From Aurantiacibacter aquimixticola (lineage in GTDB: Bacteria > Pseudomonadota > Alphaproteobacteria > Sphingomonadales > Sphingomonadaceae), in the NCBI RefSeq assembly GCF_003605475.1, contig NZ_RAHX01000001.1, forward strand, positions 2,046,001 through 2,110,000: a DNA stretch of 64,000 bases. Direction: 5' to 3'. Position 1 is the first letter of the stretch, and every line of letters starts with the position of its first letter. The notes beneath the pieces are model-generated. The model worked only from the letters and a program-made list of their open reading frames with translations, did not search any database and was not told the origin of the DNA. Positions 14,443-49,493 of this stretch are shown here, piece after piece. Position numbers and translations under genes: made by a program.

Positions 14443-15237
14443 ATGGCCACTCGCGACGTCACCTATTCCAGCTATCTCGATCTCGAGCGCATCCTGTCGG
14501 CGCAGCATCCGGCATCGGACGCGCATGACGAGTTTCTGTTCATCATCGTTCACCAGGCCAGCGAGCTGTGGCTCAAGCTCTGCCTGCACGAGCTGGAGGC
14601 GGCGCGCGAGCTGATCGTGGCCGATAACCTTTCGCCCGCTTTCAAGATGCTGTCCCGCGTGGCGCAGGCGCAGCGCCAGCTGATTTCGAGCTGGGACGTG
14701 CTCAGCACGATGACGCCGCACGACTATTCGCTCATCCGCCCGCATCTCGGCACGTCGAGCGGGTTTCAGAGCGCGCAGTACCGGCTGATGGAATTCATCA
14801 TGGGAGGGCGCAATCCCGACCATGTGACGATGCATGAGGCGGTGCCGGATGTAGCGAAGAAGCTGCGCGCCGAACTCGACAGGCCGAGCCTTTACGGCGA
14901 AGTGCTGCGCCTGCTGCAGCGGCGAGGCTTCGCCATTCCCGAGGAACTGTTCGCGCGCGATTTGCAGGCCCCGCACGAGCCGGTCGACGCGGTGACGCGG
15001 GCCTGGGCCGAGGTCTATCGCCATCCGAACCGCTACTGGGATCTTTACGAATTGGCCGAGAAGCTGGTCGATCTGGAATACCATTTCCAGCGCTGGCGCT
15101 TCGGCCATCTGAAAACCGTGGAGCGGATCATCGGCTTCAAGAAAGGCACGGGCGGCACGGCTGGCGTGCCTTATCTTGAAAGCGTGCTGAAGCTCGGCTT
15201 TTTCCCCGAACTGCTGGCAGTGAGGACCGAGATTTGA
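14443..15237 (+). CDS. kynA: Tryptophan 2,3-dioxygenase
   Basis: A 264-residue haem enzyme opening the indole ring of tryptophan to give N-formylkynurenine. The FIIVHQASELWLKL motif contains the active-site His37, and FQRWRFGHLKTVERIIG holds the likely haem-ligand His222. Length is normal for bacterial TDO. Its TGA overlaps the TTG start of kynU, so the two steps of tryptophan degradation are translationally coupled. No formamidase gene is seen nearby. Confidence 0.93.
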   Translation: MATRDVTYSSYLDLERILSAQHPASDAHDEFLFIIVHQASELWLKLCLHELEAARELIVADNLSPAFKMLSRVAQAQRQLISSWDVLSTMTPHDYSLIRPHLGTSSGFQSAQYRLMEFIMGGRNPDHVTMHEAVPDVAKKLRAELDRPSLYGEVLRLLQRRGFAIPEELFARDLQAPHEPVDAVTRAWAEVYRHPNRYWDLYELAEKLVDLEYHFQRWRFGHLKTVERIIGFKKGTGGTAGVPYLESVLKLGFFPELLAVRTEI

Positions 15238-16460
15238 ACGCGCTGATTGACAGGGCGGCAAAGCTCGACGCCGAAGATCCGCTCGCCGAGCGCCGCGACC
15301 TGTTCGCCATTGCGGATGACGTCGCCTATCTCGACGGCAATTCGCTCGGCCCGCTGCCCAAGGCAACCCGCGCCCGACTTGGCGAAGTGGTCGACAAGGA
15401 ATGGGGTGAAGATCTCATCGCCAGCTGGAACACCGCCGACTGGATTCACCTGCCCCAGCGCATCGGCGCGAAGATCGCCCCGCTGATCGGCGCGCGCCCT
15501 TATGAGGTAATCGCGGCGGACAGCGTTTCGGTGAACATCTTCAAGCTCGTCAGCGCCGCGCTGGCGATGCGGCCCGGCAGAAAGGTCGTGCTGAGCGAGC
15601 CGGGCAATTTCCCAACCGATCTCTACATGATCCAAGGGCTGGAATCGCAGGATTTGGCGGAGCAGCGGCTGGCGGAACGCGGGGAGATCGAGGCAGCGCT
15701 GGACGAGGATGTGGCCGTGCTGCTGCTCACCCATGTCCATTACAAGACCGGCGAAATGTTCGACATGGCGGCTCTGACGAAGGCGGCGCACGATGCGGGC
15801 GCGCTGGTGCTGTGGGACCTGTCGCATTCGACCGGCGCGGTGCCGGTGGACCTGAACGGCGCGGGCGCGGATTTCGCGGTCGGTTGCGGCTACAAATATC
15901 TGAATGGCGGCCCCGGTGCACCCGCCTTCGCCTATGTTGCCGAGCGGCACCATGAGGCACTCCGGCAACCGCTCAGCGGCTGGATGGGCCATGCGCAGCC
16001 TTTCGCCTTCACCGACGATTATGCCCCCGCGCCGGGCGTCGACCGCCTGCTTTGCGGCACCGCGCCGATCCTCAGCATGAGCGCGATGGAGGAAGGCGTC
16101 GACCTGATGGCAGCCATCGGCATCGCTCCGCTGGTCGAGAAGAGTCGCAGCCTCTCCGAATTTACGCGTGCGGCCATGGAACGCCACGTGCCCGAACTCG
16201 AATGCGTATCGCCCGAAAATCCGGCGCGCCGCGGCAGCCAGCTTTCCTGGCGGCACGAGCACGCCTACGAATTATGCCAGGCACTGATCGCCCGCAAGAT
16301 CACCGGAGACTTCCGCGCGCCAGACGTGCTGCGCGTAGGCTTCGCCCCCGCCTATGTCCGCTACGCCGACTGCGCGCGGCTGGTGAGCGAACTACGCGAC
16401 ATTCTCGACACGGGCGAATGGCAGAAGCCCGAATATGCGGAGCGCGGGGCGGTCACCTAG
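15234..16460 (+). CDS. kynU: Kynureninase
   Basis: A 408-residue PLP enzyme cleaving kynurenine (or 3-hydroxykynurenine) to anthranilate (or 3-hydroxyanthranilate) and alanine. Motifs visible: YLDGNSLGPLP, LWDLSHSTGAVPVDL and the PLP lysine 221 in GCGYKYLNGGPGAP. The start is a TTG overlapping the kynA stop, with GAGG 8 bases upstream; no ATG lies near. It is coupled with kynA in a tryptophan catabolic operon. Confidence 0.92.
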   Translation: MNALIDRAAKLDAEDPLAERRDLFAIADDVAYLDGNSLGPLPKATRARLGEVVDKEWGEDLIASWNTADWIHLPQRIGAKIAPLIGARPYEVIAADSVSVNIFKLVSAALAMRPGRKVVLSEPGNFPTDLYMIQGLESQDLAEQRLAERGEIEAALDEDVAVLLLTHVHYKTGEMFDMAALTKAAHDAGALVLWDLSHSTGAVPVDLNGAGADFAVGCGYKYLNGGPGAPAFAYVAERHHEALRQPLSGWMGHAQPFAFTDDYAPAPGVDRLLCGTAPILSMSAMEEGVDLMAAIGIAPLVEKSRSLSEFTRAAMERHVPELECVSPENPARRGSQLSWRHEHAYELCQALIARKITGDFRAPDVLRVGFAPAYVRYADCARLVSELRDILDTGEWQKPEYAERGAVT

Positions 16461-16471
16461 CATCCTCGTCT

Positions 16472-16571
16472 GCCCGGACCTGATCCGGGCGTGGTGCTTC
16501 CTTCGGCACGGTCGAAGGAAGAAAGCACTGCCCCGGAACAGGTGTGCTTTGCACAGCTTCGCTTTCCGGGG
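16472..16571. repeat. REP-like palindrome cluster after kynU
   Basis: Three hairpins in a row between convergent genes. The first (16472-16490) pairs GCCCGGA with TCCGGGC. The second (16495-16527) pairs TTCCTTC with GAAGGAA. The third (16531-16571) has CCCCGGAA/TTCCGGGG around an inner TGTGC/GCACA. The first shares the CCCGG...TTGAT-like...CCGGG core with palindromes at 33532, 38978 and 57286. No gene is seen here. Confidence 0.65.
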
Positions 16572-16663
16572 TGACTCGACGGGAGCGGGTTTGTCTTTCC
16601 TACAGGCGTATTGGCATGCTTGCTTGCGGATATGCCGAGCCTGTCGATCATCGCGCACAACCG

Positions 16664-16866
16664 GGTGACAGATCCCCGAAAAAGGGTGACACTTCGGGTG
16701 CCGGAAGGTCACGCATTTTTGCGCAGACGGGTTACGCCTACCCCGCGAAAGGTCACGCTTTCACCGCCGAAAGTGACGGTTTTCGGACGAAAGGTCACAC
16801 CATGCGCCGCAAAAGGTCACAAATGCCGGTTTTCGCCCCTGGACACTGTAACACTTGTCACACCCC
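16664..16866 (+). repeat. Array of degenerate 21-22 bp repeats with GGTCAC/GGTGAC core, copy 1
   Basis: Eight units begin at 16664, 16685, 16707, 16730, 16751, 16772, 16793 and 16815, so the spacing is 21-23 bases. Each starts GGTGAC, GGTCAC or a one-base variant and most end in (C)GAAA or similar. The last unit runs into a conserved block (about 16826-16866) ending in CACTTGTCACACC. A second, inverted copy lies at 49195-49365. The array sits between convergent kynU and HNH genes. It has no separate spacers and no fixed reading frame, so it is neither CRISPR nor coding. A period of two helical turns suggests an iterated protein-binding site; this is inference. Confidence 0.75.
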
Positions 16867-16883
16867 TGCAGGAGCGGCACCGC

Positions 16884-17492
16884 TCACTCTTCGAGTTCGA
16901 TGTCCCAATACAGCCAGTCCCGCCAAGTCTCGTGGAGGAAGTTGGGCGGGAAGCTCTTGCCGTGTTGCTGCAGCTGCCAGCTGGTCGGGCGGATGGGCTC
17001 GTATTGCAGGCGCATGCCTGCCTGCTTGGGCGTGCGGCCGCCCTTCTTCATGTTGCACGGGGCGCAGGCGGTGGCGATGTTCTCCCATGTCGTCTTCCCG
17101 CCAAGCCGGCGCGGCATGACATGGTCGTAGGTCAGGTCCTTCTGGCTGCCGCAATACTGGCAGGCGAAGCGATCGCGCAGGAACAGGTTGAAGCGGGTGA
17201 AGGCGGGAAACTGGCTCGGCTTAACATACTGGCGCAGCGCGATGACGCTGGGCACCTTCATGTCGAGGCTCTGCGAGTGCACTGCGCGGTCGTAGGTCGC
17301 GACGATGTCGACCCGTTCGAGGAACACAGCCTTGATCGCGGTCTGCCACGGCCACAGGCTGAGCGGATAGTAGGAAAGCGGCGTGTAATCGGCGTTGAGC
17401 ACCAGCGCCGGGCAGCTTTCCAACTTCCGTGTGGGATCCTCCTCCGCGCTGCGGAAGGTCGCGGCCCTCTCGATCAATTCGGTCTTGAACAC
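16884..17492 (-). CDS. HNH endonuclease family protein
   Basis: About 202 residues. A PALVLNADYTPLSYYPLSLWPWQ segment is followed by the HNH core: CQYCG, then LTYDHVMPRRLGGKTTWENIATACAPCNMKKG, giving two Cys pairs for structural zinc plus the His/Asn/His metal site. It is the chromosomal HNH protein common in alphaproteobacteria and not tied to a restriction system here; its cellular role is not settled. GTG 17492 is preferred because GGAGG lies 9 bases ahead; an in-frame ATG at 17528 lacks a ribosome site. Confidence 0.85.
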   Translation of the reverse strand: MFKTELIERAATFRSAEEDPTRKLESCPALVLNADYTPLSYYPLSLWPWQTAIKAVFLERVDIVATYDRAVHSQSLDMKVPSVIALRQYVKPSQFPAFTRFNLFLRDRFACQYCGSQKDLTYDHVMPRRLGGKTTWENIATACAPCNMKKGGRTPKQAGMRLQYEPIRPTSWQLQQHGKSFPPNFLHETWRDWLYWDIELEE

Positions 17493-17614
17493 GTTCGGTG
17501 TCCTCCGTCTTGCCGTGGAAGATGCCATTGCAGGACAAACCGTCAACCCTGTTACGGACAGGCTATCCACAGGGTTGTCCTCACGCGGCCCCTTCTGCCA
17601 AGGCCGTTGGCGGC

Positions 17615-33352: not shown

Positions 33353-33531
33353 GTGGTCTGCGGCGGGGTTTTGTTGATGAAACACATTCGCGTCTGCGCA
33401 TTGCAATAAGCGAACGAAAGTGGAGTGGGTGGCACGCGCCTCGCGCCGGGGATGGTTGAAAGATGCGGTGCCATGCCGGGGAGTGAGGCATATCGCGGGG
33501 TGTGTAGGAAAGGGGTTTTCCCATTCACGTT

Positions 33532-49194: not shown

Positions 49195-49365
49195 GGTGTG
49201 ACAAGTGTGACAGTGTTCAGGAGCAAAACCGGCCGTCTGTGACCTCTGGCGCGGCAAAGTGTGACCTTGCGACCCGATCCCGTGACCTTTGGCCGTAAAT
49301 GCGTGACCTTTCCCGGCCCGATCCGTGACGTCACGGGTGTCACCTAGCGAAGCGAAAGTGTCACC
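49195..49365 (-). repeat. Array of degenerate 21-22 bp repeats with GGTCAC/GGTGAC core, copy 2
   Basis: On the minus strand, cores lie at plus positions 49360, 49339, 49325, 49303, 49282, 49261 and 49239: spacing 21, 14, 22, 21, 21 and 22. It ends in the same conserved block as copy 1 (49195-49238), including the CACTTGTCACACC end. Unit by unit it can be lined up with copy 1; the last two units before the block correspond best. It lies just upstream of the MFS gene start, with the conserved block nearest the gene. Confidence 0.75.
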
Positions 49366-49493
49366 CGGGGATGCCGGAGCGATGGAGAACGGTAAGCCGA
49401 TCATGCGCGCGGACGAAGCACATCGCCGCGCCTGTAGGACAGCGAAACGGCGGCCTCCCGAAGGACGCCGCCGCTTGCTGGTTAGAGCGGATG

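Follow-up and report, generated by a model that had tools for sequence, protein, structure and literature searches.

What kind of DNA element is an array of degenerate direct repeats that runs into a conserved block, and which protein would read it? The question was raised by a stretch of the Aurantiacibacter aquimixticola genome (64,000 nucleotides of contig NZ_RAHX01000001.1, positions 2,046,001 to 2,110,000 of the forward strand; hereafter the window, whose first letter is position 1 for all window coordinates), in which an earlier note had described such an array. Here, we have followed the array and its block through the genome of this organism (hereafter the own genome) and its relatives (genomes are given as G numbers and loci as L numbers). 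On the basis of these results, the block and the array are very probably recognition sites of domesticated orphan TerS-like proteins, as predicted from sequence features. The fuller statement, that the cassettes carrying these sites are gene-less counterparts of orphan terS genes and serve gene transfer agents (GTAs) in the manner of packaging-start (pac) sites, we regard as possible and somewhat short of probable.

In the window, the array consists of eight RRGTNACR units on the plus strand (16663-16821), with cores starting at 16663, 16684, 16706, 16729, 16750, 16771, 16792 and 16814, that is, at steps of 21, 22, 23, 21, 21, 21 and 22 bp; a further 26 bp separate the start of the last core from the block. 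The direct repeats with a 21-23 base step described in the earlier note were borne out, since 200 shuffles of the window that preserved its dinucleotides, searched on both strands, gave chains of two units at most (in 3/200) versus the eight observed. The five full eight-unit copies of the own genome had an uneven pattern of steps in common (~22, 22, 23, 22, 21, 21, 22, then 26 from the start of the last core to the block), and units with the same number in different copies were more alike than units with different numbers (12.1 versus 10.9 of 20 bases; permutation p = 0.0005). The array in the window is not, however, a plain tandem one. A tandem-repeat view displayed a two-copy row at 16730-16773 and nothing further, and an inverted-repeat search of window positions 16000-17600 yielded no inverted pair.

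The array is one part of a larger cassette, in which a box (CTTTCCTACA) is typically followed by an ATG 35-38 bp on, an open frame, 0-8 array units and the block, itself made of two 9-bp direct repeats. In the window, all parts lie on the plus strand: the promoter-like left box CTTTCCTACA (16595..16604), which also precedes terS-like and spike genes, the conserved ATG (16632..16634, 36 bp past the start of TTTCCTACA), the array, and the end block GGACACTGTAACACTTGTCACACC (16841..16864; C-type, with its type matched to TerS-A). The claim that the array runs into a conserved block was therefore correct, and this block recurs in dispersed copies; on the other hand, the region had been described as lacking a reading frame, and the ATG at 16632 in fact opens a frame that spans both array and block and continues to 17618. 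The anatomy was measured in 135 cassettes (32 from the own genome, 23 from G002, 60 from a named collection and 20 from G014), 108 of which had a box within 300 bp. An ATG was located at +33 to +40 in 95 of these 108, mostly at 36-37, and the frame from it was stop-free to the block in 91/95 cases, versus 55/95 and 49/95 for the two alternative frames (Fisher p = 2e-10 and 9e-13, although related copies do not count as independent). The block fell in all three frames of the ATG (37/28/30, n=95), and the sequence of the open frame was free, the part between box and block being unlike among copies. Most copies that lack an array had ~110 bp between box and block, and most that bear one had 200-260 bp. 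Two other explanations were dropped. A mini-peptide would suit the open frame, yet the block lies in all three frames and the peptides, by eye, were not conserved; a core promoter (AGGACA-N17-CATTAG) suited the T-type block described below, not the C-rich end of the C-type. Rfam gave no match over any cassette at 12 loci, and its six weak matches, all outside cassettes and under the gathering score, were to eukaryotic or archaeal families.

The cassettes are widely dispersed over the chromosome of this marine bacterium. A BLAST search with the window region gave 27 matches in the own genome, and the block pattern with at most two mismatches gave 33 copies there (18 on the plus and 15 on the minus strand; reversed control, 0). 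Among 118 genomes, the same pattern was found in 12, all of the window's genus (12/40 versus 0/78 of the others). The exact pattern occurred at 59 loci of the named collection, in Aurantiacibacter or in metagenome-assembled genomes labelled Erythrobacter sp. or Alphaproteobacteria bacterium, and no viral contig in IMG/VR carried it. The genome scan that the earlier note had proposed thus returned many copies with the same end block, including 12 in the own genome with 6-8 units at the same period, and the second copy that it had mentioned does exist, on the minus strand of the window (L010, 49195..49441; block at 49195-49218, array, and box near 49441). Two of the 33 own copies were inside coding sequences, and the right neighbour was co-oriented in 26/31 of the remainder (26/30 under a stricter pattern, which drops one own copy). 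Enrichment of the box was seen in the majority of the 40 genomes of the genus (such as G015, 34 versus 0, and G004, 33 versus 0), with a few exceptions, among them G033 (5 versus 9), G029 (7 versus 10) and G036 (3 versus 4).

Block type was nearly uniform per genome and differed between lineages. A second lineage carries GGACAGTGTTCCATGTGTTCCA (T-type) at corresponding places, and a G-type block (GTGCTCCA) was observed in G003, G010 and G038. With a broad block pattern, at least one match was found in 38/118 genomes (29/40 in the genus and 9/78 others, the latter mostly with one match). G045, from another genus of the family, had 37 such matches, G064 had 6 and G056 had 4. In the T-type genome G014, 16 of the 20 blocks have neighbouring genes that elsewhere border a C-type block; the sites thus keep corresponding positions across the change of type and seem to have been recoded in place. 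Flank identity was rejected as proof of such a switch, being only slightly raised (7.7 versus 7.1 of 14, p = 0.018), so that the argument rests on the shared neighbours. Units of the same kind as in the window array occurred at three or four of the 20 sites in G014, and one of these, on the ruvA side, corresponds to an own-genome site that also has an array. At arsC and lpd, the whole unit is present or absent between otherwise abutting genes. In G010, G015, G026 and G038, where the broad pattern matched once or not at all, 30 box sites were also inspected. Behind many of these boxes lay phage-type genes or repeats of GTGTCAACTT-like or GTGTCACTT-like sequence; behind some, nothing was recognised.

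The link to a protein comes from terS-A, an orphan terS-like gene. A genus search with TerS-A gave matches in 39/40 genomes, some of them only paralogues, and the 30 best loci were fetched for block inspection. One block of the lineage's own type was present in 25/30 loci; none was found in G009, G010, G021 and G027, and G028 had a poor match only. In 23 of the 25 the block was inside the terS-A frame, and in two (G034 and G036) it began at the stop. Most lineages read it in differing frames: the peptide is QxxVTPVTP or close to it in C-type terS-A and GQCSMCS in most T-type genes, which indicates that the DNA, not the peptide, is kept. In G036 the genome's single block is at an interrupted terS-A, and in G021 a different repeat directly follows the terS-A stop. 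In the predicted recognition helix, the residue preceding QTAYRAR varied with block type, being R in 10/10 C-type, P (5) or A (6) in 11/11 T-type and S in 2/2 G-type genes; G036, with a C-like block, has SRQA and G022 (AACAGGTGTAACA) has ARMT. Excluded from this typing were G027 (unreadable), G009 (not aligned there) and G010, G021 and G028 (no typed block). A two-gene species tree of 24 genomes was unconvincing and was not used for counts. A separate locus, L009 (G000:C1:2364232-2364768), contains box, terS-like remnant and block, the remnant having 45% identity to TerS-A residues 123-195, and apparently stands midway between units that bear the gene and units that lack it.

Other orphan TerS-like proteins extend this picture. 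PHROG 4044 matched TerS-A, TerS-B, TerS-C, two S-group proteins and the L452 protein; no Pfam family was found for those TerS proteins, with a sub-threshold HTH_23 match for TerS-C alone. A sequence search of the PDB gave a chance match only, and INPHARED had no match to TerS-B, the sole protein tried there. Among 20 further loci, 18 had a TerS-like open reading frame, preceded by the box at 35-38 bp from the ATG in 11/18, and a recognised repeat followed the gene in five (L395, L399, L405, L408 and L412, the last being terS-A of G021). Repeats of the GTGTCA type were found behind those genes that have an RQSAY helix (L395, L399, L405, L408 and L451) and are also dispersed in the genomes of these genes, with one case upstream of arsC in G035. 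The same genome has L452, an orphan terS that runs into eight units with steps of 22, 22, 24, 22, 20, 21 and 21 bp and a C-type block 26 bp past the start of the last unit. L452 is the window cassette with the gene still present. One ground for rejection in the earlier note was that the array might belong to the degraded 3' end of a gene already known; such an overlap was found in one relative, where the array reaches into the 3' end of L452. The array unit that TerS-C genes carry at a constant position was set aside, as it may be no more than the codons for KVT. The neighbours of orphan terS genes were of other kinds, with no adjacent large terminase in the 1.5-4 kb loci viewed. A box-less TerS group followed by TerL was also seen (L442 and L453 with Pfam Terminase_6N, L449 by eye); in L442 and L453 this TerS matched PHROG 4044 from near its N-terminus, unlike the TerS of the Rhodobacter capsulatus GTA.

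The same box connects the orphan terS genes with GTA genes. Directly behind it in the own genome are three TerS-like proteins (PHROG 4044) and a GTA-type spike base (NF048002), and behind a diverged box (TGTCCTACA) a phage lysozyme; in the relatives G026 and G015 it precedes a gene of GTA-holin type (by eye). The own holin (PF11351) has a block 6 bp after its stop and no exact TTTCCTACA nearby. At L031, L339 and L432 a lysozyme gene has a block inside its coding sequence, the sequence type differing by species. According to the available part of PMC9638019, head spike and lysis genes belong to the late genes of GTAs, for which GafA acts as trigger together with CtrA.

Recognition by TerS-like proteins fits best because of the type matching, the site within the gene and the covariation with the recognition helix. 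TerS-A would read the block, physical binding being probable, and for the eight-unit array the reader may be a second orphan TerS, of group C. The first suggestion, that a DNA-binding protein reads a helically phased array, is well supported. The whole unit of promoter-like box, start codon, open frame and sites would be explained as the gene-less counterpart of a site-carrying orphan terS. How the sites are used is a more tentative matter, and here a pac-like use linked to GTAs is preferred, with reserve, because the box is common to lysozyme and spike genes and the site is inside terS. An orphan TerS would be switched on with the GTA genes via the common box, dock at block or array sites and pass the DNA to the GTA large terminase; chosen chromosomal regions would then be preferentially packaged, and the sites matching the resident TerS kept.

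Several results weigh against this interpretation. Covariation of block type and helix is confounded by ancestry, and the types are not wholly pure, with one hybrid block in G025, one deviant block in G008 and both G-type and GTGTCAACTT-type cassettes in G038. The array is tied to group C by the single locus L452; nine other group-C genes have 1-3 scattered units and no array, and one has none. Thirteen of the 18 further orphan terS reading frames, TerS-B-like ones included, lack any recognised repeat within or behind the gene, and Foldseek against the PDB gave no significant match (E above 0.6). A pure pac site leaves the open frame through the block (91/95) unexplained. No member of PF13547, a marker family for GTAs, was found in the own genome, so that packaging may not occur there. 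Finally, blocks lie upstream of co-oriented genes beyond chance (26/30, 15/21 and 42/54; 83/105, p = 2e-9), which suits a transcriptional role.

The last point leads to the main rival, which we consider unlikely, though worth serious attention: the TerS-like proteins may have been co-opted as transcription regulators, with a leaderless promoter formed by box and ATG and a transcribed block serving as operator or roadblock, controlling lysozyme, terS-A itself and ~30 downstream genes. The orientation bias, the open frame and the absence of PF13547 keep this reading only a little behind the pac-like one. The spacing of +35 to +38 for the ATG, seen in the majority of cassettes and in 11/18 orphan terS genes, also agrees with it, as do the 16 T-type-genome blocks beside the same genes as C-type blocks. 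On the other hand, some copies, the window copy included, lie between convergent genes, the downstream genes have by eye no clear common pathway, and a site deep within a coding sequence, as in terS-A, is typical of pac and uncommon among operators.

An improbable alternative is that the cassettes are mobile repeats. REPINs, dispersed intergenic repeats of a cognate RAYT gene that itself carries the repeat, offer the model: the cassettes would be copied, non-autonomous internal-deletion derivatives of mobile terS units, with a TerS-like protein in the RAYT role. Gene-bearing, apparently decayed (L009) and gene-less units with both ends in common, presence or absence of the whole unit at arsC and lpd, and nearly one block type per genome all favor such a history. 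The 16/20 sites at corresponding positions across a change of type and the dissimilar sequence between box and block do not, and no transposase or nuclease was seen beside the copies, save the HNH-domain neighbour of the window copy. Neither an inverted REP pair nor a linked RAYT gene was found, the linked proteins being TerS-like.

A chromosome-structuring or partition array, or an iteron, as the earlier note had proposed from the two-turn phasing, would accord with many dispersed intergenic copies and with the 12 array copies being apparently nearer parS than expected (median 364 versus 628 kb, 9/12 pointing away; few copies; window copy ~154 kb away), but is very improbable, as the 33 copies have no orientation bias relative to parS (19/33 directed away) and no excess of regularity in their spacing over random, two are inside coding sequences, no location near oriC or a replication or partition gene was found, and the linked genes are TerS-like, not of replication or partition type.

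With regard to known systems, the resemblance to phage TerS/pac headful packaging is in the TerS-like proteins with a predicted helix-turn-helix (HTH), the short repeated site inside or at the end of terS, and the joint variation of site and recognition helix, here in sequences alone; unlike in phages, the orphan genes have no large terminase beside them in the loci viewed, and dozens of sites are spread over a bacterial chromosome in small box-ATG-frame cassettes. Satellites of the Staphylococcus aureus pathogenicity island (SaPI) type bring their own TerS and pac, and similarly an own TerS with its own site could redirect another element's packaging here, although no satellite genome was seen around the cassettes and the sites are scattered over the host chromosome. 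As in REPIN/RAYT systems, dispersed intergenic repeats belong to a repeat-carrying cognate gene, whereas there is no palindromic pair and no own nuclease gene, and positions are kept while the sequence type changes. The R. capsulatus GTA, with its terminase gp1/gp2 and its scattered loci, is similar in its spike base, lysozyme and GTA-holin families, of which spike base and lysozyme are tied to the box here, and in that some relatives have a separate terS-terL pair. Its TerS lacks an HTH and GTA binding sites were stated as not known in 2019, according to the available part of PMC6854486, whereas predicted HTH proteins with type-matched sites are present here. The available part of a study on Caulobacter GTA control by GafY, IHF and GafZ (PMC11150451) does not name such sites. 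Our literature searches found no report of such sites and no publication joining Aurantiacibacter, repeat and intergenic.

The remaining features of the window are mainly context. The array cassette is flanked on the left by a kynureninase-like gene (15234..16460, plus strand) and on the right by a convergent gene with an HNH endonuclease domain (16884..17570, minus strand). A third cassette (33373..33511, minus strand) has the same left box (33503-33511) and a differing right block, ATGTGTTTCATCAAC, at 33373-33387. Cassettes of the ATGTGTTTCATCAAC type were seen at six sites in the own genome, two of which precede relA/spoT-like and aldolase-like genes (by eye).

The prevailing view is that GTAs package host DNA irrespective of its sequence. 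It is conceivable, though doubtful, that those of Aurantiacibacter are not sequence-blind: orphan TerS, produced along with the GTA lysis and spike proteins, would load the terminase at dozens of pac-like cassettes, cassettes matching the resident TerS would be transferred in excess and hence kept by drive, and a change of the recognition helix would recode the sites in place into a lineage-specific packaging code. Directed packaging could be tested directly with a TerS-like family whose chromosomal sites are dispersed and matched by type. Should the sites be operators instead, a viral packaging protein would have turned into a wide regulator. The block types, together with the matching helix residues, provide a natural series for protein-DNA recognition.
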